64,000 nucleotides of DNA from Candidatus Bathyarchaeia archaeon. GTDB lineage: Archaea > Thermoproteota > Bathyarchaeia > Bathyarchaeales > Bathycorpusculaceae. The stretch covers positions 62,001-126,000 of the forward strand of contig JASEET010000002.1 in NCBI GenBank assembly GCA_030019335.1, read 5' to 3'. Positions 1,025 through 62,338 of the stretch are shown piece by piece. A program made the translations under genes and the position numbers. The notes beneath the pieces are model-generated. The model had not been told where the DNA came from. It searched no databases and saw only the letters and a list, made by a program, of their open reading frames with translations. Within the stretch, counting starts at the first letter, position 1; each line of letters opens with the position of its first letter.

Positions 1025-1053
1025 CCGATATTTTAAACCGATATTTGAACCTA
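1025..1053 (+). repeat. Half copy (arm) of the ~77-bp palindromic element
   Basis: A 29-bp arm starting CCGATATTTTAAACCG and ending GAACCTA. It is almost identical to the left arm of the full element at 31518-31595. No matching right arm is visible here. It lies in the 200-bp gap between the convergent surface-protein and acetoacetyl-CoA synthetase genes; nothing else is seen in that gap. Confidence 0.7.
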
Positions 1054-1074
1054 AACCGAGATACCATTGTAAGA

Positions 1075-18224: not shown

Positions 18225-18570
18225 GTTCTTTCCCAGTTAGACCTCTCAGTTAGACCTTAAATAGATTGCTGTTGTCTTCCATGATTGTCAACCATGTCTT
18301 TGATTTTCGGTTTAGATTTTGACCCTTCAGTAGCCAGCAAGTTTGCAAGCTCATTTTTCAACACTCCGTCCACATTGTTTAATTCGGGATTCTAGCGTCT
18401 ACATTTCCGAACGTTCATTTTCCACCATCCATCTCATTCAACATAAACCCTAACAAAAACATATTTGGCTCCAAATAGACGGGCCTACCGCAATTGCACG
18501 CACACACAGAGCATAACATACACTAAACTACTAAAAATATCTGATAAAAGCATAAAAAGGGGAAAAGAAG
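18225..18570. other. 346-bp intergenic region downstream of EF-1alpha
   Basis: No ORF is supported. The only clear structure is the 49-bp repeat at 18460-18508 (listed separately). Confidence 0.6.
18460..18508 (-). repeat. 49-bp dispersed element, copy 2
   Basis: Read on the minus strand it begins TGTGTGTGCGTGCAAT and ends CAAATATG. It matches 43830-43878 at 41 of 49 positions with no gaps. The shared block CCCGTCTATTTGG is followed by a small inverted repeat (ATTTGG-AG-CCAAAT). GATGGATGGTGG lies 40 bases further on, as GATGGTGG does after copy 1. Confidence 0.75.
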
Positions 18571-31517: not shown

Positions 31518-31595
31518 CCGATATTTTAAACCGATATTCGAACCTATTTACTTTTGGCGGGCCCGAGTAGGTTCAAATCCCCGTTTAAATTCTCC
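31518..31595. repeat. ~77-bp palindromic element, full copy B
   Basis: Left arm 31518-31546 (CCGATATTTTAAACCG...GAACCTA) pairs with right arm 31568-31595 (TAGGTTCAAATCC...TTCTCC): 21 of 28 positions complementary. The centre is GC-rich with the palindrome CGGGCCCG. Total 78 bp. Confidence 0.75.
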
Positions 31596-32890: not shown

Positions 32891-32919
32891 CCGAGAATTT
32901 AAATCGAGTTTTAAACCTA
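32891..32919. repeat. Arm of the palindromic element (copy E)
   Basis: CCGAGAATTTAAATCGAG followed by TTTTAAACCTA resembles the reverse complement of the right arm of copy D. It is followed at 32920-32930 by ACCCCCCGCAC, the same 11 bases as the acceptor end of tRNA-Leu. Confidence 0.5.
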
Positions 32920-33026
32920 ACCCCCCGCACTGCGATCAGAGATTTGAGTTTAGCCGTCTTTTTGGCGTTAATCTTTCGCTTTCAAGATTATATAGTGCCA
33001 ATCTCGTTATGATGAAGTGAAGACGC

Positions 33027-34008: not shown

Positions 34009-34084
34009 CCGATATTTTAAACCGATGTTTAAACCTATCCCGGGCTACCATGAACCCTAGTCAGGGTATTGTTCAAACTCTCGG
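34009..34084. repeat. ~77-bp palindromic element, full copy C
   Basis: Terminal arms CCGATATTTTAAAC and GTTCAAACTCTCGG are complementary at 11 of 14 positions; total 76 bp. The centre contains CCCGGGCTACCA and the hairpin ACCCT-AGTC-AGGGT. Confidence 0.7.
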
Positions 34085-34126: not shown

Positions 34127-34384
34127 TTGTCTTCTCCGTTGAAAGATAAGCCGTTTGGGCTTTTTACTAATTCGTCCTCGGACGCCTACAGCGCCGTGCC
34201 ACTACAAGAGCATCTGGAAAAGTTCTGCTTGTGGTTACAAATGAAACCCATGACAATAGAAAAATGGCCCTTTAGAGGGGTGCATGGACAATTTCCCGTC
34301 GCAGAGGATTCACGAGCCCTGGAACTCGCAAGAACGCTTGGAAAAAATGTAGCAGAGTGTGTATGCAAAACCCCGATAATTTAA
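34127..34384 (+). pseudogene. C-terminal remnant of a flavodoxin-like protein
   Basis: 85 codons from a TTG. The pattern KPFGLFTNSSSDAYSAVPLQ, LEKFCLWLQMK and EDSRALELARTLGKNVAE resembles the C-terminal half of flavodoxin/NADPH-FMN-reductase-like proteins (final helix D-x-x-A-L-x-x-A-x-x-L-G). The N-terminal FMN-binding half is missing. It is bracketed by two palindromic elements (copies C and D). Confidence 0.4.
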
Positions 34385-34449
34385 ACCTGATGTCTGAACC
34401 TATCCTGGGCTACCACAAACCGTGGACAGGTCGAGGTTTAAATTCTCGG
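34373..34449. repeat. ~77-bp palindromic element, full copy D
   Basis: Terminal arms CCGATAATTTAAACCT and AGGTTTAAATTCTCGG are complementary at 15 of 16 positions; total 77 bp. The centre has CCTGGGCTACCA and the stem CCAC/GTGG. Its left arm overlaps the end of the flavodoxin-like remnant. Confidence 0.75.
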
Positions 34450-38825: not shown

Positions 38826-40163
38826 ATGAGCGAGAAAAAAGAATTTTTGGGTTACAAAGGCGAGGTGTTGGAAACTATCAAAAAGGCTGAAGCTGAAATA
38901 GGCGACATAATACGCGTGACAAAGAACGAAGAAGTTTACGAAGGCATCTTGATTCCCCGCTCAGAATACGGAGACGAAAAACACGTGGTCATAAAGCTGA
39001 GAAGCGGCTACAATATTGGCATACGAATAACACCAAACACAAAAATAGAAAAAATAGGCAAAGGAGCAAAACCAGCCTTCGCCCCAACTTCATCACCAGA
39101 GCAGAATCCGAAGCTGCCAAAAGTCGCTATAATAAGCACTGGCGGAACAATAGCCAGCCGTGTAGACTATAGAACAGGAGCTGTTCGACCAGCCCTAACA
39201 GCAAGCGACTTATACAGTGTTGTTCCAGAACTAGCCAACATAGCACGAATAGACGCCCAAATATTACTCAGTCTTTTCAGCGAAAACATAATACCCAAAC
39301 ATTGGACAGAAATAGCGAAGGCTGTTGCCAAGCAAATAGCCGAAGGCGTAGACGGTGTACTGATAGCACATGGAACAGACACCATGGGTTATACTGCTGC
39401 AGCCTTAAGCTTCGCCTTACAAAACCTGCCAGTTCCAGTAATACTCGTGGGTTCGCAACGTTCAGCAGACCGCCCAAGCTCAGATGCAGCAACAAATCTG
39501 ATAGGTGCAGTGACAGCAGCAGCAAAAGCTCCTTTCGCCGAAGTAGCATTAGCAATGCATGAAACACCATCAGATACTTCCATAACGCTTCATAAAGGGA
39601 CAAAAGTCCGAAAATGCCACACAAGCAGAAGAGACACCTTCAAATCTGTGAACGCACAGCTCATAGCAAAGGTAGAAAACCATAAAGTAACCATGCTTAT
39701 AGAAGATTATCGGAAACGTGACCCCTCAAGAAAGCTTGTGCTAAAACCAGAGTTCGACGAGAAAGTTGCATTAATAAAGTCTTATCCGGGGATGAATCCC
39801 GCGGTAATCGACTGGTGTGTTGAAAATGCCTATAGGGGTATAGTTCTTGAAGGGACAGGCTTAGGTCATGTGGGCAGATACTGTTTTGAGGCTATACGAA
39901 GCGCTGTAAAGCATGATATCGTAGTTGCTATGACTTCTCAGTGTATCTGGGGACGCGTAAACATGAATGTTTATGACCAAGGTCGGGATTTGCTGGCTTT
40001 AGGTGTGATTCCATTAGAGGATATGCTTTCGGAAACAGCCGTTGTTAAGCTTATGTGGATTTTCGGGCAAACCCGAGATATGGAAGAGGCCAAAAAGCTC
40101 TTGAAAACAAACATTGTGGGAGAGTTTTCACCGCGAACGCTTCCTGAGAAAAGCGGCGAATAA
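38826..40163 (+). CDS. gatD: Glutamyl-tRNA(Gln) amidotransferase subunit D
   Basis: 445 aa. An N-terminal beta-barrel (GDIIRVTKNEEVYEGILIPR) is fused to an asparaginase-type domain: ISTGGTIASRVDY (nucleophile Thr), AHGTDTMGYTA (second Thr, Asp), VGSQRSADRPSSDAATN. It supplies ammonia from Gln for conversion of Glu-tRNA(Gln) to Gln-tRNA(Gln), exclusively archaeal. Directly followed by gatE. Confidence 0.96.
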   Translation: MSEKKEFLGYKGEVLETIKKAEAEIGDIIRVTKNEEVYEGILIPRSEYGDEKHVVIKLRSGYNIGIRITPNTKIEKIGKGAKPAFAPTSSPEQNPKLPKVAIISTGGTIASRVDYRTGAVRPALTASDLYSVVPELANIARIDAQILLSLFSENIIPKHWTEIAKAVAKQIAEGVDGVLIAHGTDTMGYTAAALSFALQNLPVPVILVGSQRSADRPSSDAATNLIGAVTAAAKAPFAEVALAMHETPSDTSITLHKGTKVRKCHTSRRDTFKSVNAQLIAKVENHKVTMLIEDYRKRDPSRKLVLKPEFDEKVALIKSYPGMNPAVIDWCVENAYRGIVLEGTGLGHVGRYCFEAIRSAVKHDIVVAMTSQCIWGRVNMNVYDQGRDLLALGVIPLEDMLSETAVVKLMWIFGQTRDMEEAKKLLKTNIVGEFSPRTLPEKSGE

Positions 40164-40168
40164 GGAGG

Positions 40169-42085
40169 ATGAGATTGCCGTTGGAAATAGATTATGAGAA
40201 AATCGGGTTGAAGGTTGGGTTAGAAATTCATCAGCAACTCGACACGTCCGCAAAGCTGTTCTGTAACTGTAAACCAGAACTTTTCAAGGAAGAGCCAGAA
40301 ATCACATTCTTGCGCAGATTACGACCGACACAAAGCGAACTAGGTCAGATAGACCCTGCAGCCTACTTTGAATTCCAGAAAGGAGTGAAAATTCTATACG
40401 AAGCAAACACAGCAACTTCGTGTCTTGTTGAGATGGATGAGGAGCCACCTCACCCGTTAAACATGGAAGCTGTTGAAATAGTATTAGCAGCAGCCTTAAT
40501 GATGAAGGCTAAGCCTGTTGATGAGATTCATGTGATGCGTAAAACAGTTATAGATGGCTCAAACACCACGGGCTTCCAAAGAACATGTGTAATAGCTTTA
40601 AATGGCGAAGTGAAAACTGGAAAGAAAATAGTTCCGATTCAATATGTAAGCCTAGAGGAAGACGCGGCAAGAAAAATGGGTGAAGAAGAAGGCGATATAA
40701 TACGTTATCGTATAGACCGTTTAGGCATACCCCTAATAGAAGTAGCAACTGCGCCTGTCATAAATTCGCCTAAAGAAGCAGGAGAAGTGGCATTGGCAAT
40801 CGGGAGAATTTTGAGGGCTACTGGAAAAGTTAAGCGGGGCTTAGGGACAATCCGCCAAGACCTAAACATATCAATCCCAAATGGTGCAATAATAGAAATC
40901 AAAGGAGTGCAGGAACTTGAGCTGCTTCGGTTCGTTGTGGAGTATGAGGTTCAACGCCAATTAAATCTCCTAAAAATAAGCGATGAACTAGGGAAAAGTG
41001 AAGTGAAAGAAGAAGATATAAAAGAAGAGTTTTTCGATGTAACAGAAATTTTCAAACAGACAAAATGCAAAGTTGTCCATAAAGCTCTGGATAGAAATCA
41101 GCGAGTCTTCGCAGTGAAACTTCCAAAATTTAAGGGTTTTCTGAAACGGGAACTTGTGCCAAATTTCCGTCTTGGAACAGAGATGGCTTACAGAGCACGT
41201 TTCTGGGGAAGAGTGGGCGGCATATTTCACACAGATGAGTTGCCAGCCTATGGAATAACGGCAGAAGAAGTTGAAGAGTTAAGAAAAGCCGTCAAAGCTG
41301 ATGAACATGATGCTATAGTCTTTGTTGCAGATAATCCAGAAAACGCTAAAGATGCACTAAAGGCGGTTGTGGAAAGAGCCCGAGAAGCCATAAAGGGCGT
41401 ACCAGAAGAAACCAGAGCACCAAATCCTGATGGAACAACACATTACATGAGACCAAGACCAGGAGCAGCAAGGATGTATCCAGAAACAGACATTCCACCA
41501 GTGCAGATAACAGAAGACTACATAAAGCAGATTGGTTCACGCTTGCCAGAGCTGCCAGAGCAGAAACTTCAACGTTTAATGAAAGAGTATAGACTAAATC
41601 AGAAATTAGCTAAGCAGATTTTGGATTCCGAACATGGCGAACTGTTTGAGACTATTGTGAAAGAAAGTCGAGTTTCACCAACCACAGTTGCTGTGTTTTT
41701 AACTGAAACTTTGAAAGCATTAAAACGCGACGGCATTCAAATAGAGAAAGTTTCAGAAAATCAAATACGAGAAATTTTCAAAAGCATAAACGCTGGGGAG
41801 CTAACGAAAGAAACCATACCAGATATGGTTGTCTGGCTATCAAAACATGAAAACAAAAGTGTGCAAGAAGCAGTGAACAGTCTTGGCTTGAAAATAATTT
41901 CAGAAGATGAGCTGAGAGTGTTTGTTGAAAAAGTGGTTGTAGACAATAGAGAGTTGATTCAAGAACGGGGGGAAGACAGTTTTGGCATTCTCATGGGCAT
42001 TATCATGAGGGATTTGCGGGGCAAAGTGAACGCCGCCTTAGCCAGCAAGGTATTAAAAGAAAAGCTGAAGGAATTTATGGAGTAA
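40169..42085 (+). CDS. gatE: Glutamyl-tRNA(Gln) amidotransferase subunit E
   Basis: 638 aa, archaeal GatE. Opening LKVGLEIHQQLDTSAKLFC (kinase/amidase core), TVIDGSNTTGFQRT and GLGTIRQDLNISIPNGA, an AspRS-like insert, and the C-terminal YqeY-like tail (GILMGIIMRDLRGKVNAALA). It activates Glu-tRNA(Gln) with ATP. AGGAGG sits directly before ATG 40169. Confidence 0.96.
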   Translation: MRLPLEIDYEKIGLKVGLEIHQQLDTSAKLFCNCKPELFKEEPEITFLRRLRPTQSELGQIDPAAYFEFQKGVKILYEANTATSCLVEMDEEPPHPLNMEAVEIVLAAALMMKAKPVDEIHVMRKTVIDGSNTTGFQRTCVIALNGEVKTGKKIVPIQYVSLEEDAARKMGEEEGDIIRYRIDRLGIPLIEVATAPVINSPKEAGEVALAIGRILRATGKVKRGLGTIRQDLNISIPNGAIIEIKGVQELELLRFVVEYEVQRQLNLLKISDELGKSEVKEEDIKEEFFDVTEIFKQTKCKVVHKALDRNQRVFAVKLPKFKGFLKRELVPNFRLGTEMAYRARFWGRVGGIFHTDELPAYGITAEEVEELRKAVKADEHDAIVFVADNPENAKDALKAVVERAREAIKGVPEETRAPNPDGTTHYMRPRPGAARMYPETDIPPVQITEDYIKQIGSRLPELPEQKLQRLMKEYRLNQKLAKQILDSEHGELFETIVKESRVSPTTVAVFLTETLKALKRDGIQIEKVSENQIREIFKSINAGELTKETIPDMVVWLSKHENKSVQEAVNSLGLKIISEDELRVFVEKVVVDNRELIQERGEDSFGILMGIIMRDLRGKVNAALASKVLKEKLKEFME

Positions 42086-42729: not shown

Positions 42730-42858
42730 TCCTCATGGTACCTGTGCTTTCATTATAAGTATTATATCTTAATATTTAATACGATATTTCCGATCCGAAA
42801 TATATCGAAATACGTAAACTCTAAAAAGAGTTAACACCTTCTATATGCTGGGATAAGT

Positions 42859-43338
42859 TTGTCTGGCAAAAAGGTTAAAGAAATCGGAAAGAATTTTGTT
42901 TTTCGCGTTAAAATAGGCGAGTATGAAGTGGAAATTAATGGGAGCTGTGAAGAAGTTTTGAAAACAATTAAGGAGTTGCCGGGTTTAATGGCTGATGTTT
43001 ACAAGGCTTTTGAAAGTTTTAAACCTAAAACGACAGCGACGCTCACTGTTAAAACGGCAGCTGCCAAAAAAGAAGCCCCAGCGCAAAAATACCCCAGAAT
43101 CTTGTATACAGAAAGCTGTAGTGAAGCTATTGTGAGGATTCTTGAAACTGATTGGGGAAAATGGCGTCCCCGAAATCTTGCTGAGTTGAAAGAGGCGTTG
43201 AAGGCTAATGGACTGCGTTATCAAGGACGCACTTTCGCAAGAGTTTTAACGGGACTTGTTAGGAAGGGAAAGGTTAGGCGTTGGAAGACTGACGCTGGCT
43301 ATGTTTATATTCTCGCTGAAAAGGAAGTTTTGGCTTGA
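42859..43338 (+). CDS. Winged-helix-like paralog family, member 1
   Basis: 159 aa from TTG 42859. The N-terminal domain FRVKIGEYEVEINGSCEEVL is a short beta-hairpin/helix module seen also in three nearby genes. The C-terminal domain (CSEAIVRILETDWGKWRPRN ... GRTFARVLTGLVRKGKVRRW ... GYVYIL) has a helix-turn-helix plus wing pattern. It is most like member 4 (45771-46169). Probable DNA-binding or adaptor protein; targets unknown. Confidence 0.65.
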   Translation: MSGKKVKEIGKNFVFRVKIGEYEVEINGSCEEVLKTIKELPGLMADVYKAFESFKPKTTATLTVKTAAAKKEAPAQKYPRILYTESCSEAIVRILETDWGKWRPRNLAELKEALKANGLRYQGRTFARVLTGLVRKGKVRRWKTDAGYVYILAEKEVLA

Positions 43339-43351
43339 GAGGGGATGCTGG

Positions 43352-43822
43352 ATGAAGAAGGTTAAAGCGAGAATAAAGACGCCTTTCGGCGAAATTATAA
43401 TTGAAGGCGAAAATCCACAGGAAATTCTCGAAGTGCTTGAGACTTTTCCAGAGAAATTTATGGAAAAAGTTGGGGACCTTGTCTCAAGTCGGTTAGTTCC
43501 GTCTGGGGTTCAGTTGAAGGGTATAGTTGAGTTCACTACGGAGGGCCCTGTGATAGTGACTCGTGAGAAGCTTACGCATTATGAGGCTGTAGGTTTGGTT
43601 TTGTATGCTTCGGAGGATAAGAAGAACACGGCGGCACAGATAACGATGCTTTTGGAGTCGAGTGGGATTAAGAGCATGGTTCCGGCACGCTTAAACGAAA
43701 TGACCAAAAGAGGGCAAGTTTTCAAACCAGATCCTAGTAGGCCTGAGTTTAAGTTGACTGTGCAGGGTGAGAGGTGGATTGAGGATGATGTTTTGGCTAG
43801 GCTTAGGGGTAAGATGGTTTGA
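43352..43822 (+). CDS. Winged-helix-like paralog family, member 2
   Basis: 156 aa from ATG 43352, preceded by GAGGGGATG; the frame opens farther upstream inside member 1. N-terminal module VKARIKTPFGEIIIEGENPQEILEVLE, then IVEFTTEGPVIVTREKLTHY and a winged helix (ARLNEMTKRGQVFKPD, FKLTVQGERWIEDDV). Closely similar in layout to member 3, with which it probably forms an operon. Confidence 0.65.
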   Translation: MKKVKARIKTPFGEIIIEGENPQEILEVLETFPEKFMEKVGDLVSSRLVPSGVQLKGIVEFTTEGPVIVTREKLTHYEAVGLVLYASEDKKNTAAQITMLLESSGIKSMVPARLNEMTKRGQVFKPDPSRPEFKLTVQGERWIEDDVLARLRGKMV

Positions 43823-43829
43823 GAATGCT

Positions 43830-43878
43830 TGTGTGTGCGTGCAATGGGTTTAGACCCGTCTATTTGGCTTCAAATATG
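43830..43878 (+). repeat. 49-bp dispersed element, copy 1
   Basis: Lies between members 2 and 3 of the paralog cluster, ending 21 bases before the ATG of member 3. 41 of 49 bases match 18460-18508 (minus strand). It contains the hairpin GGGTTTAGACCC. Confidence 0.75.
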
Positions 43879-43899
43879 ATGTGATGGTGGTTGTGGTGG

Positions 43900-44412
43900 A
43901 TGGGTGAGGCTGAGCGAGAGGTTACGGTTCGTGTTAGGTTTGGGGATGTGGAGCAGACGTTTACGGGCAGCGTTGAGGATGTTTGGCTGAGTTTAAACAG
44001 GTTTTTTGGCGAGTTTCTTCCATCTTTTGAGGTTGCGAGGAAGTTGGTTTTGAGTGTTGATTTGCAGAAGCTTGTGGAAGAGTGTGAGGGATTAATTGCT
44101 TTTTCGCCGGAAGGTGTGAATCTGTTGGTTTCTAAGGATAGGTTGACGGATAATGAGACTTTGGCTTTGTGGCTTTTAGCTAATTATGTGGGTCATCAGC
44201 TTAGCATGATTGAGAGTGATGCTGTTTCTAAAGAAGAGTTGCAGGCGAAGCTTGGAAAGAGTGGGAAGATTACGAGTACGCGGCTTGGAGAACTTGTTAA
44301 GAGTGATGTGGTTGTGAAGACTGATGATGACAAATATAGGATTACGACTTTTGGCGTAGTGCAGATACAGAAGGACATCATTCCGAGGATTAAGGCAAAA
44401 ATGGGTAGTTAA
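43900..44412 (+). CDS. Winged-helix-like paralog family, member 3
   Basis: 170 aa from ATG 43900 (frame opens at TTG 43891). N-terminal module VTVRVRFGDVEQTFTGSVED, then GLIAFSPEGVNLLVSKDRLT and a helix-turn-helix with wing (ITSTRLGELVKSDVVVKTDD, KYRITTFGVVQIQKDII). Homologous along its length to member 2. The 49-bp element directly precedes it and might be its leader or control region. Confidence 0.65.
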   Translation: MGEAEREVTVRVRFGDVEQTFTGSVEDVWLSLNRFFGEFLPSFEVARKLVLSVDLQKLVEECEGLIAFSPEGVNLLVSKDRLTDNETLALWLLANYVGHQLSMIESDAVSKEELQAKLGKSGKITSTRLGELVKSDVVVKTDDDKYRITTFGVVQIQKDIIPRIKAKMGS

Positions 44413-44567
44413 GCAGTTTTCTCCAGTACTCTGCGGAGACTAGACCTCCCTTATATATAGGTTGAACTTCTAATACGGTCTATTGTGAAACACAGATCAT
44501 CGAACGTTTTCGGTGAGTTTAAACAAACCTTAAATTTCCCGTTAGCATAATTTTATTTCTGGTTGAA

Positions 44568-44681
44568 ATGCCCTTTAGAGGAATCGTTGTTCTCGCGGGC
44601 GTCTTATGGACCGCTATAGGTCTATTCTTCTATATTTTCAGGGAATCCGCCGCAGACGACGAACCAGCCTTCTTCCCATAG
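44568..44681 (+). CDS. Possible 37-aa single-TM protein
   Basis: ORF MPFRGIVVLAGVLWTAIGLF followed by FYIFRESAADDEPAFFP: one hydrophobic segment then an acidic tail. It has a good ATG and an A/T-rich upstream, but its 3' end runs into the decayed paralog fragment, so the tail may be accidental. Confidence 0.35.
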   Translation: MPFRGIVVLAGVLWTAIGLFFYIFRESAADDEPAFFP

Positions 44682-44766
44682 TTTTTGTATTATTCCTTTG
44701 CATGTTTCTGCTCTTGGCGGCGTGCAACTCTTTCAATGATAGTCTGTGTTTCCTTCAGCTTTTTAT
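44641..44766 (-). pseudogene. Decayed fragment of a fifth paralog (like 45771-46169)
   Basis: DNA at 44661-44765 aligns with 45940-46045 (for example CCTTTGCATGTTTCTGCTCT in both). On the minus strand the fragment reads KKLKETQTIIERV then, after a shift, PRAETCKGIIQKLWEEGWF, matching PRAETCKGVIQKLWEEGWF of member 4. Both ends are missing. Confidence 0.7.
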
Positions 44767-45135
44767 TTCCAAATCAAATGTGCAAAATTCCTTAATCTTG
44801 TTTAGAAACTTGTCAGCATTATTCACTATGCTTGTGGCTCCTTCTTCTGAGAATATAAGATCATAATCAGCCTCTTCTCTTAAGCTTATGGCTTCCTCAA
44901 AGTTTTCAATTAGTTCCGATTCTAGCTGATTTTTGAAAAGTTCTCTTAATGCTACGAGTAATGCGTAATGACTTTTTTCTCTAAATCCTTTACTATACAA
45001 GAGCGCCCTTGCAGCATGAAACATCGAATAATAACCCTGTATAGTAGCCCCTTCAATTTCTTTAAGAACTAATTTTCTATCAACACTTATCCTGATTAAT
45101 TTTCTTTCCTCGACAAAACGCTTGAACATGCTCAT
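44755..45135 (-). CDS. hepT-like: HEPN-domain protein (toxin half of MNT/HEPN pair)
   Basis: 126 aa, all-helical HEPN: GYYSMFHAARALLYSKGFRE then KSHYALLVALREL, containing an R-x(3)-H catalytic-type motif (REKSH). HEPN proteins are commonly RNases. Its ATG overlaps the stop of the nucleotidyltransferase gene by 4 bases, the classic MNT/HEPN toxin-antitoxin arrangement. Ends within the decayed paralog fragment. Confidence 0.75.
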   Translation of the reverse strand: MSMFKRFVEERKLIRISVDRKLVLKEIEGATIQGYYSMFHAARALLYSKGFREKSHYALLVALRELFKNQLESELIENFEEAISLREEADYDLIFSEEGATSIVNNADKFLNKIKEFCTFDLEIKS

Positions 45136-45611
45136 TCAGACTCCCACAAGAGTATCCCCTTCAAAATCCTGTCATACAAGGGCTTGTCCTCCCTTCTCAA
45201 CTTTATGAACTCGTTAGAGTTAACTATAATTGGCGCTATCCTTTTCCCAGCTTTTTGATAAGCATTAATCTTCACTTTTACTCTATCCTTTTCATTTGTG
45301 AGAATAAATAAATCTACATCGCTTTCTTTTACGTCAGTTCCTTCTGAGCAACTTCCGAATAATATTATTCTCTTACAATCTTGTTTTATCTCCTCAACCA
45401 ACTCATTCAGAGAATAAACATTGAATAGAACTTTAAACTGTCTCGCCACAGCATTCTTCATGTTAAGACTGTAGAAAACCATTCTTCCCCTTTTATCCCT
45501 ATTAAGCACTTTAATTTCGGAAAGCTCTGAGAATTTTGTTCGCAGAACCTTTGCTAACTCTCGCTCTTCGCACAACTTCTCTCTCGTGTAATTCTTGCAT
45601 TGGCTCTTCAT
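45132..45611 (-). CDS. mntA-like: Minimal nucleotidyltransferase (MNT) antitoxin
   Basis: 159 aa. An N-terminal winged-helix-like part (REKLCEERELAKVLRTKFSE) precedes the nucleotidyltransferase motif LFGSCSEGTDVKESDVDLFI (GSx(n)SDxDL). In studied pairs such enzymes AMPylate the HEPN partner to silence it. First gene of the two-gene operon. Confidence 0.78.
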   Translation of the reverse strand: MKSQCKNYTREKLCEERELAKVLRTKFSELSEIKVLNRDKRGRMVFYSLNMKNAVARQFKVLFNVYSLNELVEEIKQDCKRIILFGSCSEGTDVKESDVDLFILTNEKDRVKVKINAYQKAGKRIAPIIVNSNEFIKLRREDKPLYDRILKGILLWESE

Positions 45612-45770
45612 GGAATAGGTAGAGAATTTTCAGCAGAGTCGGTGTAATGAAATCTAATTTATCGGGCATATGCTCATTATTTTGAGCCTAAAAGATAAAT
45701 AGCTTTCCCTCCTACGCTAACGTTACGAAATGATTCCAAAACTCAATTTTCCTTGTCCAAGCCGGTTCTG

Positions 45771-46169
45771 TTACGGTGGTCTTTTTTGGGCGTACTGGTA
45801 TCTTCTTGGTTTTCCTGTTCTTGTTAATATGTTATCCTTCACTAGGTCTACTAGTGCGTGGGCTACTGCTGTTCGGTCGTAGTGAAATCCCCGCCTCGCC
45901 ATTTCACTGTGCACCTCGCTTAACCCTTTAGGCGTAGCAAACCATCCCTCTTCCCAGAGCTTCTGAATCACGCCTTTGCATGTTTCTGCTCTCGGCGCTG
46001 GTGCAGTCCTCTCTGTTATCAATGGTGTTTCTTTCAGCTTTTTCGTCACTGTGGATAGAATTCTGTCTACTGCTGTTTGGAGTTGGTCTTCTTGGCATTC
46101 TATTTCGAATTCTATTTCTCCCACTTTCATTTTGACGCGTATTGGTGGTTTTTCTGTTTTTTCTGTCAA
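45771..46169 (-). CDS. Winged-helix-like paralog family, member 4
   Basis: 132 aa from TTG 46169, which has GAGGTGG just upstream; the frame opens at ATG 46214. N-terminal module RVKMKVGEIEFEIECQEDQL, then VIQKLWEEGWFATPKGLSEV and GFHYDRTAVAHALVDLVKDN (helix-turn-helix) with basic wing GKPRRYQYAQKRPP. Most like member 1. It is divergent from nurA-herA (95 bases between starts) and could control that operon. Confidence 0.65.
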   Translation of the reverse strand: MTEKTEKPPIRVKMKVGEIEFEIECQEDQLQTAVDRILSTVTKKLKETPLITERTAPAPRAETCKGVIQKLWEEGWFATPKGLSEVHSEMARRGFHYDRTAVAHALVDLVKDNILTRTGKPRRYQYAQKRPP

Positions 46170-46263
46170 TTTTCCACCTCGTTGTTTATTGTATTGTACA
46201 TCTTGTACATGCACAACACTTAAATACTTCTTACTTCAAACTATTGGCTATTGGTGAATCTTG

Positions 46264-47343
46264 GTGATTGAACAATACACTATTACAACAACACCAAAAT
46301 ATAACTTTCCACACCTCATAGACACAACATTACCTCAACGCCTTATAGAACTAAGCTTACACTCGCTAAAGCACGTGCAAAACCCCCCTTTTCAACTAAA
46401 TCAACAAACTTTTCAACAAGCCAACAGCTTAGAAGATCATATACAAACACTGCAGCCTAAACTGCAACCAATACCCCTAAAGCCTAAACCCCAAGAAACC
46501 ATGGTTGCTGCGGTAGACACATCAAGCATAAAAATCGGCGAAACGAGCACGGGCATATTAATAGCTGTCAGAGGAGCAAATGTTTGGAAACAAAACAAGA
46601 GTTACAGATACATAAGACTTGGACCCTTCCTATTTCACATAACAGAAGAAAACAAAAAAGAAGTCTACAACGCATTACGAAGGGCATACTTCAACTCTCC
46701 ACACGAGCATGACCGTCAAAGCTCGCCAAATCTTCTGCAGATGCCAACACGCATTGCAAATCTCCTTGAAAGATGGCTGCAAAAAATGTTCTCAAAAACA
46801 ATAAGCAATGGATTAATCCTTTTTGACGGCTCACTAACCTCTGGAATAGCGGATACCCCAACACAACGTATGACAGAAATTCTAACCACTGCAAGAAAGA
46901 GGAACAATGTTGTTCTGGCTTTCTCAAAAATGACCAGTCTAAGATTTAATGGCTACCTCATAACAGACGTGCTACTTAAGTACAAACCTCCTTACATGCT
47001 TGAGATGACTGGTTTGAAGCCTAAACCTCCAATCGTCTTGTTAGGTGATGTTTACGTGGCCAGGTTGACCAAGGGAAACTATGCCTTTAGACTTGACATC
47101 GACAAAGAAGTTTCTCATGAACATAGAATCGAAGCGGTTGAAAAACTTTTGGGAACCGACCTATTTTCACAAAGCTACCCTGAAACCTTACGTTTGGCAC
47201 ATATCCTCTGCACCTTCACGGCAAACGAGGTCATAGCCATGCAACATTTTATTGCACACAGATACGGGCTTAAAATCATCAATAGACCAGACATGCATAG
47301 GCTTTTGTTTGGACCTTTTGGTAAAGGTGAAAGGCGTTCATGA
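46264..47343 (+). CDS. nurA: NurA-family 5'-3' nuclease
   Basis: About 359 aa from GTG 46264. NurA-fold acidic sites are seen in MVAAVDTSSIKIG (Asp) and GLILFDGSLTSG (Asp), with the C-terminal ILCTFTANEVIAMQHFI. It overlaps herA by 4 bases. NurA with HerA resects DNA ends in archaea, usually together with Mre11-Rad50, which are not in this window. The N-terminal ~80 residues are Pro/Gln-rich and unlike the standard family. Confidence 0.75.
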   Translation: MIEQYTITTTPKYNFPHLIDTTLPQRLIELSLHSLKHVQNPPFQLNQQTFQQANSLEDHIQTLQPKLQPIPLKPKPQETMVAAVDTSSIKIGETSTGILIAVRGANVWKQNKSYRYIRLGPFLFHITEENKKEVYNALRRAYFNSPHEHDRQSSPNLLQMPTRIANLLERWLQKMFSKTISNGLILFDGSLTSGIADTPTQRMTEILTTARKRNNVVLAFSKMTSLRFNGYLITDVLLKYKPPYMLEMTGLKPKPPIVLLGDVYVARLTKGNYAFRLDIDKEVSHEHRIEAVEKLLGTDLFSQSYPETLRLAHILCTFTANEVIAMQHFIAHRYGLKIINRPDMHRLLFGPFGKGERRS

Positions 47344-48800
47344 AGCTATACAAGAAAGAGGGCAACATTGTTCAGATTTTGAGCTTCCCAAACGAAACAG
47401 TGGAGAAAGGCGACTATCTACTCATTGAAGATGCTGATGCTGGAAAAGCGTTAATCGTTCAAGTGATTGATGTTCAATTCGCAAGTATCCCAGGCATTCT
47501 TGAAGAACTCCTTCGCAGCCTCCCAGACGGTGGAGAGTTAATGCAGGGCGAAGACTTTGACCCGTTAGAAATTGCTCCACACATCACATATATTCAAGAT
47601 GCGAAGTTGAACATTTGCAAAATCCGCGCAACTGTAGAAAATGAAGGCTTAAGTCCGAGCAGTTCATGGCTTCCTTCACGTTCCCAATCAGCAATAAGGA
47701 AGCTGCCGATTCCAACGTTGCTTAAACTTGCAAAGATTGATGGAAAACTTCCAATAGTTTTAGGCGGTACAAAAGATTCTTCGTTTCTGACAATAGATGC
47801 TTCATCCTTAGATGGAAAGTTAAACATAATAACTGGGAAAAAGGAGACGGGCAAATCCCATCTATCCAAACTTTTGATGTTAAACTTGATACGGTATAAG
47901 GTTACGGTAGTTGTTTTTGACTTAAACGGCGAATATGTAAGTCTAGGCATGACAGCCGACGGAAAAAGAAACGCCTATTACAACAAAATTCACGTTTTAA
48001 CGCCTTCTCAAAACTTTAAGATCGCCCTAAAACAGTTGGATCTGCATGTTCTATTGAGCATCCTTATACATGCGCTCCACTTACCCGGCACCTCTGCCCG
48101 CGAGTTTAGGCGCATATGGCAATCCCTGAAGGAAAGAGGCAGTCTTGCTCTGCGCGAGTTAGGCGAAGCCATACGCAATTGGCGTTGCAATCAACATGTT
48201 CGCGATGCGTTATTTTCACGCTACTATGCTTTGGTTAATTCCGGTTTTTTCACAGACAATGTCGCTGAAGCCATGCTTCTGGAAGAGTGCCTATTTAAGG
48301 CTAGAGAGGAAGGCGGCGCAATTATAATAAACTTGCGAAACACTTCGGCGATCGACCGCCAAATAGTTGTTGAATATTTACTTGGGAAATTTGTTGAATT
48401 GTTAACAAGCTGGAAGCTTAAGGCGATTTTTCTTTTCGCTGAGGAGGCACATCTTTACTTGCGTGAAACTTACTGGGATGACATTGTAACGCGCATGCGG
48501 CATTTCGGAATCTTTACAACGTTCATAACAAATCAGCCTGACACAATCCGGCAAAACATCTACCGCCAAGCAGACAACATATTCCTCTTCAACTTCACAA
48601 ACGAACATGATTTAGAAGTTGTTTCACGAGCAGCCAGAGTGGACGCAGAAACCGTTAAATCCATTGCTGTAGACTTGCCTCCACACTATTGCTTGGTGCT
48701 TGGAAAAGTTGTGAAAGACTTCCCAATGGTTGCGAAAGTTAAAGCCTTAGATGTTAAAACAATGGGAGAAACAAGGCTATTCTTCAAAGACATGAATTAA
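47340..48800 (+). CDS. herA: HerA-like DNA translocase ATPase
   Basis: 486 aa of the HerA/FtsK superfamily. N-terminal HAS-barrel-like domain, Walker A ITGKKETGKSHLSKLL, Walker B KAIFLFAEEAHLYL, arginine-finger region TRMRHFGIFTTFITNQPDTI. It forms hexamers that drive the NurA nuclease. Walker A lacks the common G-x-T-G form (GKKETGKS is still a valid P-loop). Translationally coupled to nurA. Confidence 0.85.
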   Translation: MKLYKKEGNIVQILSFPNETVEKGDYLLIEDADAGKALIVQVIDVQFASIPGILEELLRSLPDGGELMQGEDFDPLEIAPHITYIQDAKLNICKIRATVENEGLSPSSSWLPSRSQSAIRKLPIPTLLKLAKIDGKLPIVLGGTKDSSFLTIDASSLDGKLNIITGKKETGKSHLSKLLMLNLIRYKVTVVVFDLNGEYVSLGMTADGKRNAYYNKIHVLTPSQNFKIALKQLDLHVLLSILIHALHLPGTSAREFRRIWQSLKERGSLALRELGEAIRNWRCNQHVRDALFSRYYALVNSGFFTDNVAEAMLLEECLFKAREEGGAIIINLRNTSAIDRQIVVEYLLGKFVELLTSWKLKAIFLFAEEAHLYLRETYWDDIVTRMRHFGIFTTFITNQPDTIRQNIYRQADNIFLFNFTNEHDLEVVSRAARVDAETVKSIAVDLPPHYCLVLGKVVKDFPMVAKVKALDVKTMGETRLFFKDMN

Positions 48801-50369: not shown

Positions 50370-50454
50370 CGGATTGTGGAAACCGCTTTACACAGACCCA
50401 AATCCCTTGAGCGTTCCGTTAGTGAAAGAGAGGTTGAACGCGTTCAAAAAGTTT

Positions 50455-50496
50455 ACGCAATTCATCCACCGATTTCAATCGGTGGTCTTCTTGCGT
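50455..50496 (+). mobile_element. IS605/tnpB right-end-like hairpin, copy 1
   Basis: CCACCGATT / AATCGGTGG stem (50466-50474 with 50477-50485) inside an outer ACGCAA / TTGCGT repeat. The sequence AATTCATCCACCGATT followed by GGTGGTCTTCTTGC is the style of the 3' end (RE/omegaRNA hairpin) of IS200/IS605-family tnpB elements. A second copy lies at 62253-62294. The ~150 bases upstream on the plus strand are open but unrecognised. Confidence 0.55.
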
Positions 50497-50534
50497 GATT
50501 CTTATAAGCCTTATGCCAAAAAACATCTAAATAC

Positions 50535-61927: not shown

Positions 61928-62263
61928 TTAATAGAAAGTCACAGTAACTTTTCTTGTTTTATAGCTGATAGTTATGCTTGAGGATTTGAGCATGCTCGCT
62001 CCGATCAAAGCGTCTGTTCCATCAGTCAATATTACTTCAGCTCGTCGTTTTAGATCGTTTAATTCAACATTGCACGAGTAAACGGGAACTCTTTTTCTGG
62101 AGCCGTCGGCCAGCTCGACGTCATGGACATATTCAAGGATTAGCCCAATTTGAACGGCAAGGGTTATAGGTATGCACAGGTCTCCGTTGAAGTCCGTGTC
62201 TACTATGGCTTCCAGTTCGATGGTTCCTCTTAAGCCTGCCACCTTAACTTTAACGCAATTCAT
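61928..62263 (-). CDS. Retropepsin-like (clan AA) protein with altered active-site triad
   Basis: 111 aa. Pattern TIELEAIVDTDFNGDLCIPI ... VELADGSRKRVPVYSCNVEL ... GTDALIGASML is the clan-AA aspartic protease fold of small archaeal/bacterial proteins. The hallmark D-T-G is D-T-D here. The start ATG lies inside the IS605-end-like hairpin repeat (62253-62294), so the gene may have gained its start from it or been truncated there. Confidence 0.65.
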   Translation of the reverse strand: MNCVKVKVAGLRGTIELEAIVDTDFNGDLCIPITLAVQIGLILEYVHDVELADGSRKRVPVYSCNVELNDLKRRAEVILTDGTDALIGASMLKSSSITISYKTRKVTVTFY

Positions 62264-62294
62264 CCACCGATTGAAATCGGTGGTCTTCTTGCCT
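62253..62294 (+). mobile_element. IS605/tnpB right-end-like hairpin, copy 2
   Basis: CAATTCATCCACCGATTGAA followed by ATCGGTGGTCTTCTTGCC. Nearly identical to 50455-50496 over 42 bases (differences in the loop and the last outer bases). TTATAA follows within ~15 bases in both copies. No tnpB C-terminus adjoins; a tnpB N-terminal fragment lies 1.3 kb to the left. Confidence 0.55.
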
Positions 62295-62338
62295 AATGTT
62301 TATAAAGAAATCGTAAGAAGACCTCTGGTTAGCACACG

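Follow-up and report, generated by a model that had tools for sequence, protein, structure and literature searches.

A paralogous set of two-domain, winged-helix-like proteins linked to nurA-herA in Bathyarchaeia and related archaea

Why should four small paralogous genes lie next to those for the NurA nuclease and the HerA DNA-pump ATPase in a Candidatus Bathyarchaeia archaeon? Studies of HerA–NurA have treated it as belonging to the Mre11–Rad50 pathway. The genes, here called M1–M4, came to attention in an initial annotation, made from the letters alone, of a 64,000-nucleotide stretch of contig JASEET010000002.1 (assembly GCA_030019335.1, positions 62,001 to 126,000; hereafter the window), which described an expanding family of small proteins with one N-terminal β-hairpin module joined to different winged-helix halves. 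We found that the four proteins have this module in common, with C-terminal halves of two classes, that the set is linked to nurA-herA across the phylum, with M4 and NurA co-occurring almost strictly, and that a single 23-bp site lies at the promoter shared by M4 and nurA. The reading that we favour, and to which we give about an even chance of being correct, is that M1–M4 form an ancient paralogous set of probably sequence-specific DNA-binding proteins dedicated to HerA–NurA, in which M4 regulates itself and nurA-herA through the 23-bp site.

All four open reading frames were found intact where the annotation had placed them and on the same strands, and because each has orthologues in 41 to 53 of 61 related genomes (Bathyarchaeota) we take them to be real genes. 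Three are on the plus strand: M1 (class I; 42859..43338, 159 amino acids, pI 9.8), in which the module (~42886-43026) is followed by a basic linker and a winged-helix-like half; M2 (class II; 43352..43822, 156 amino acids), in which it (~43352-43495) precedes a MarR/PadR-like winged helix; and M3 (class II; 43900..44412, 170 amino acids), with the module at ~43906-44061 and a winged helix homologous to that of M2. M4 (class I; 45771..46169, 132 amino acids), on the minus strand, has the module at ~46023-46151 and a winged-helix half; its most likely start codon is the TTG at 46169, upstream of which a GAGGTG ribosome site is kept in the orthologues. The C-terminal halves of the M proteins are basic (pI 8.9-9.9).

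In order to compare the two parts of these proteins separately, alignments of the M1–M4 orthologues and distant members were split into N- and C-terminal halves and compared profile against profile, the N-terminal profiles comprising the first ~45 residues and reversed sequences serving as controls. The N-terminal half of M1 matched those of M2, M3 and M4 with probabilities of 96.4, 94.4 and 94.7%, respectively, and the values for M2–M3, M3–M4 and M2–M4 were 92.1, 93.3 and 68.8%, against 0.8-35% for the controls, so that the common module is statistically real over all six pairings. The C-terminal halves gave 97.8% for M1–M4 and 98.9% for M2–M3 and only 3.6-61% for the cross pairs. Taken together, these scores indicate a single module fused to two kinds of winged helix, paired as 1/4 and 2/3 just as the annotation had supposed. 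AlphaFold2 models agree in the N-terminal part: that of M2 (mean pLDDT 81.7) consists of a β-hairpin and helices followed by a winged helix, and that of M4 (pLDDT 68.7) has the same hairpin-helix arrangement followed by a weakly modelled helical half. When the module profile was run against the window's own genome, it returned exactly four matches, namely M1–M4; its clear matches in 19 other genomes were genes of the cluster or further family members, and the few remaining matches elsewhere were marginal (E 0.01-0.09). Four genomes chosen as family-free gave nothing in three cases and a marginal partial match (E 0.007) in the other. The module is therefore essentially confined to the M gene set, which would fit a private interaction domain; the annotation had suggested that it may serve in dimerization or bind a ligand.

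No family in Pfam, NCBIfam, PHROGs or PADLOC matched M1–M4 above threshold, and sequence searches of the PDB with the M2 sequence and with the M2, M3 and M4 profiles gave nothing credible. At the level of fold, MarR and PadR structures head the Foldseek list for the M2 model, with superpositions of ~85 columns at 2.4-4 Å, none of them at E ≤ 0.001; M2 can thus be placed with MarR/PadR by its winged-helix fold, but none of M1–M4 by a curated family profile. The window M4 scores 14.4 bits against Penicillinase_R (PF03965; BlaI/MecI), below the cut-off of 22.6, and 19 of 30 M4 orthologues match that model at E ≤ 0.01, the best at E = 2e-4, a weak likeness. A viral origin of the M proteins was considered and rejected, because no relative of M3 or M4 was found among the viral contigs of IMG/VR and the fold matches in BFVD were generic.

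The idea of an expanding family did not survive comparison with other genomes. Orthologues of M1, M2, M3 and M4, normally in single copy, were found in 41, 53, 46 and 45 of the 61 related genomes, respectively, and profile matches in 14, 44, 65 and 54 genomes of a second sample of 200 drawn across the phylum; M2 is the most widely kept member, with a mean column identity of 80%. In trees, M1, M2, M3-like and M4 proteins form separate clades, each of which draws its members from several families, and the duplications must therefore be old, with the paralogues normally present once per genome and in conserved order, although M3-like copies are often two in distant genomes. The wider family that the annotation expected does exist, in Bathyarchaeota and in distant families of the phylum, and its members did not prove to have unrelated folds (M2 and M4 were modelled, and profiles were compared for all four). 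As a separate observation, termite-gut Bathycorpusculum contigs (L152-L166) keep M2, on some of them beside GatE and often with an Lsm-like gene after it; M1 and M3 were not detected on these contigs.

The link to HerA–NurA is closest for M4. In the window, NurA (46261..47343, plus strand, 360 amino acids) is diverged, matching the Pfam NurA model (PF09376) at E = 0.0019, below the curated cut-off, and adjoins HerA (47340..48800, plus strand, 486 amino acids; Pfam DUF87/HerA, PF01935, 7e-15), so that by profile the two form a HerA–NurA locus. NurA orthologues occur in 44 of the 61 related genomes; 43 genomes have both M4 and NurA, two only M4, one only NurA and 15 neither (Fisher p = 3e-11, a value that ignores kinship between the genomes), and the discordant genomes are explained by contig ends in two cases (G033, G052) and an M1 cross-hit in the third (G043). 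The adjacency noted in the annotation was confirmed. In all 43 pairs M4 and nurA are divergent on the same contig, 86-147 bp apart save in one pair cut by a contig end, and in two genomes (G006, G035) M4 lies ~70 kb from M1–M3 and still adjoins nurA. In distant families (L191-L202) M4 also lies beside NurA–HerA. In L193-L195 HerA–NurA seemed at first to be absent, but a NurA that resembles the Pfam model more closely is present there, divergent from M4, and in L193 and L195 it has a HerA as neighbour; NurA proteins of distant loci that have the same M4 match Pfam (1e-14 to 1e-23) far better than the window NurA does.

The intergenic region between M4 and nurA is strikingly conserved in an alignment of relatives, and it contains a 23-bp operator-like site, TTGTACATCTTGTACATGCACAA (46194..46216, no strand assigned), in the promoter shared by the two genes. 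The site ends three bases from a TATA-like TTAAATA (46220..46226, no strand assigned), which is kept in the alignment and probably serves nurA on the plus strand and, read on the opposite strand, M4 on the minus strand; the site would then extend from the TATA element towards the M4 transcription start, overlapping the region just upstream of the nurA TATA. It can be read as an inverted repeat, TTGTACAT-N7-ATGCACAA, with one mismatch, and also as two TTGNNCAT units with 9 bp spacing. This tandem occurs once in the window, compared with 0.15 expected from shuffles, and nearly all its occurrences among the fetched loci are at the M4/nurA promoter. We scanned 22 whole genomes for the 23-bp site, allowing up to two mismatches and using the reversed pattern as a control. 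It was present at the M4/nurA promoter in 16 of 16 M4-positive Bathyarchaeia (13 exact, three with one mismatch), whereas elsewhere in the 22 genomes there was no exact copy and only three more matches with one mismatch; the reversed pattern gave 0-2 matches per genome. A wider regulon for the site was rejected on the lack of further exact copies in these 22 genomes. In distant families, TTGNNCAW (TTGNNCAA-type) tandems or palindromes occupy the same position relative to the TATA box, including in front of the other type of NurA.

The simplest account of a lone, dedicated palindrome at a shared promoter would be an M4 dimer that binds there and limits its own synthesis. On this account M4 would dimerize through its N-terminal module and bind the 23-bp site, and binding would repress its own gene and set the expression of nurA-herA; M1–M3 may hetero-oligomerize with M4 through the same module, either tuning M4 or carrying the complex onto DNA. 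The likeness of the M2 fold to the MarR/PadR repressors and to AspA (see below), with the weaker likeness of M4 to BlaI/MecI, was counted for regulation, and the divergent pairs, near-strict co-occurrence and adjacency in distant families for the tie to NurA–HerA. The constancy of the site, the kin units in distant relatives, the private module and the basic C-terminal halves were also taken to support the favoured reading. Several observations weigh against it. The fold model of M4 is weak. Bathyarchaeia without detectable NurA or M4 (G011, G048, G054, G057) nevertheless keep M2, which must either have another role or pair with an undetected type of NurA, and in some families of the phylum (L203-L205, L209) other M-like proteins are encoded beside nurA, with no M4 found. 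Moreover, the conservation of a single-target regulator seldom exceeds that of its target, but in most of these genomes M4 is better conserved than NurA (about 70-89% identity compared with 43-75%). Given its place beside nurA-herA across the phylum and the conserved site, the set is probably a module, so far undescribed, that controls or assists the processing of DNA ends.

Two of these observations, the higher conservation of M4 and the retention of M2 where NurA is undetected, are the reason for keeping in play a second explanation, which we consider possible but unlikely to be right: that M1–M4 are physical accessory subunits of HerA–NurA, a hetero-oligomer held together by the common module, in which two or more winged helices recognize DNA ends or structures and load or restrain HerA–NurA, in the place that Mre11–Rad50 has in the classical cluster, the promoter site then being ordinary autoregulation. 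Single-copy paralogues with one common domain, a fixed order and very high conservation do resemble a complex, and the presence of M4 is coupled almost perfectly to that of NurA. In classical archaeal clusters nurA-herA is linked to rad50-mre11 (PMC2288612); no open reading frame of the size and character of Rad50 was present in the fetched neighbourhoods, although no profile search for Rad50 or Mre11 was made. The conserved, once-per-genome promoter site, however, favours specific binding and regulation, and the stoichiometry is not fixed, because 12 genomes with NurA lack M1 and others keep M2 although they have no NurA. A bolder form of the same idea, which we regard as somewhat more doubtful still, is a phylum-wide accessory complex for end resection that hetero-oligomerizes through the private module, assembles at the single site, physically directs or licenses HerA–NurA and replaces the Mre11–Rad50 linkage.

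The M proteins might instead have a general housekeeping role, binding nucleic acids or acting in chromatin, with no functional tie to the neighbouring GatD-GatE and NurA–HerA, next to which frozen gene order would have kept them. The usual order in 49 Bathyarchaeota loci is Elp3, GatD, GatE, a zinc ribbon and a membrane protein, M1, M2 and M3, beyond which usually come M4, convergent, and then NurA–HerA; the same core order was found in distant families, and in the window GatD and GatE (38826..42085, plus strand) are upstream neighbours kept in many genomes of the phylum. Conservation of this entire stretch, the very high conservation of the proteins and the retention of M2 without NurA would all be expected of such proteins. 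M4, however, stays with nurA when ~70 kb from M1–M3 and is missing from genomes without NurA, and a dedicated promoter site is not predicted by frozen order alone, so that we judge this explanation improbable.

We think it very improbable that the locus is a partition or landmark system like that of AspA, with M proteins nucleating and spreading on the 23-bp locus and HerA, a member of the FtsK-HerA superfamily, acting there. AspA (archaeal segregation protein A, Sulfolobus pNOB8) is a dimeric winged-helix protein; it binds upstream of the gene that encodes it, at a palindrome of 23 bp, and spreads from there (PMC5120986). At the level of domains, its structure (5k5q) gives one of the best superpositions on M2 (2.4 Å, with TM 0.73 on the target), both sites are of 23 bp, and the site here occurs once per genome. 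That fold score is not significant (E ~0.1), however, and PadR/MarR folds are common; no sequence homology to AspA emerged from the PDB searches, whether the query was M2 itself or the profile of M2 or of M3; the 23-bp site hugs the TATA box, as operators do; and no ParA/ParB-like partner stands among the annotated neighbours (GatDE, NurA, HerA), although no search was aimed at ParA/ParB.

A defence or toxin–antitoxin island with accessory regulators, suggested by the MNT/HEPN pair inside the M cluster of the window, can be dismissed as scarcely credible, because neither an MNT nor a HEPN match was found in any of the 49 family-bearing Bathyarchaeota loci, M1–M4 have no PADLOC match and M3 and M4 have no relatives in viral contigs.

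The pair itself (44755..45611, minus strand; HEPN at 44755-45135 and the MNT nucleotidyltransferase at 45132-45611, both by Pfam) is PDC-M05-like by PADLOC and lies outside the M system. The annotation was right that the cluster surrounds it, but a functional link is not supported: among the 49 loci it is private to this genome, a recent, lineage-specific insertion at the M3–M4 gap, which holds differing genes in differing lineages. The decayed family member also exists, as ~100 nt on the minus strand (~44662-44760) adjoining M3, where several relatives keep M4, but the hairpin module attributed to it is lacking; positions 44662-44760 are 74% identical to the middle of M4 (~residues 44-90, window 45940-46039). 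A partial and an intact M4 on opposite sides of the pair suggest insertion through duplication or recombination at M4. The annotation had further proposed to look for co-occurrence of the family with a 49-bp element. This element lies at 43830-43878, between M2 and M3, with an inverted copy (84%) at 18460-18508. Of the other loci compared, only that of the closest relative (L121/L032) shares the copy between M2 and M3, at 82%, and the element therefore looks like a small mobile repeat, recently inserted; a functional link to the family is not supported.

Some further features of these loci may be recorded. Upstream of M1, GTAAA-TCTAAAAGGAG (42814-42830) is conserved in relatives and is probably the promoter of an M1-M2-M3 operon; a palindrome in the same region, TATTTCCGATCCGAAATA, was rejected as a conserved site because relatives do not keep it. 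In two families M4 is separated from the class II genes by a further gene of ~235 amino acids (L194:8891-9604 and L195:7763-8467), the two copies being similar to each other, with a weak TrmB-like helix-turn-helix match in the L195 copy, and the HerA of L195 (3562-6156, minus strand, 864 amino acids) has an intein (PF14890) interrupting its ATPase domain. An AT-rich motif of ~43 nt, CCGATATTTTAAACCGATATTTGAACCTA, occurs five times in the window (1025-1067, 31518-31560, 32891-32933, 34009-34051 and 34374-34416), its copies resembling promoters or regulatory repeats, and two copies (50452-50507 and 62250-62305, 88%) of a 56-nt element that contains the palindrome CACCGATTTCAATCGGTG may represent a mobile repeat or attenuator. 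No structured RNA family of Rfam was found at 40-50 kb of the window.

Sulfolobus islandicus needs HerA–NurA for viability (PMC4351679), and the M genes and their unique DNA site travel with it in Bathyarchaeia and their relatives, large lineages for which there are no laboratory models. If the M proteins are regulators, archaea of these lineages would have a switch devoted to end resection; if they are subunits, they would be a new component of the HerA–NurA machine. The annotation knew of no described system with this layout, and our literature searches likewise found the cluster nowhere described: in the sources searched, the M set, its two-class architecture, the private module, the tie to nurA-herA and the once-per-genome site are undescribed. 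HerA–NurA and winged-helix proteins are themselves of known kinds, and what we see here would be a HerA–NurA locus with a new, dedicated module of predicted DNA-binding proteins. The M proteins have a winged-helix DNA-binding half in common with the MarR/PadR and BlaI/MecI repressors, but differ from them in the unmatched N-terminal hairpin module, in forming a set of several paralogues and in being coupled to DNA-repair genes. The M system resembles that of AspA in having a winged-helix protein, predicted to bind DNA, and a palindrome of 23 bp that precedes the gene for such a protein; the partners of AspA, however, are ParB and ParA and not HerA–NurA, and a hairpin module of AspA is not mentioned in the portion of PMC5120986 used here. 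Finally, the M locus has the HerA and NurA genes side by side in a conserved neighbourhood, as in the classical nurA-herA-mre11-rad50 cluster, but in place of a Rad50-like open reading frame, none of which was seen in the fetched neighbourhoods, the M locus has a paralogous winged-helix set and a dedicated divergent promoter site.

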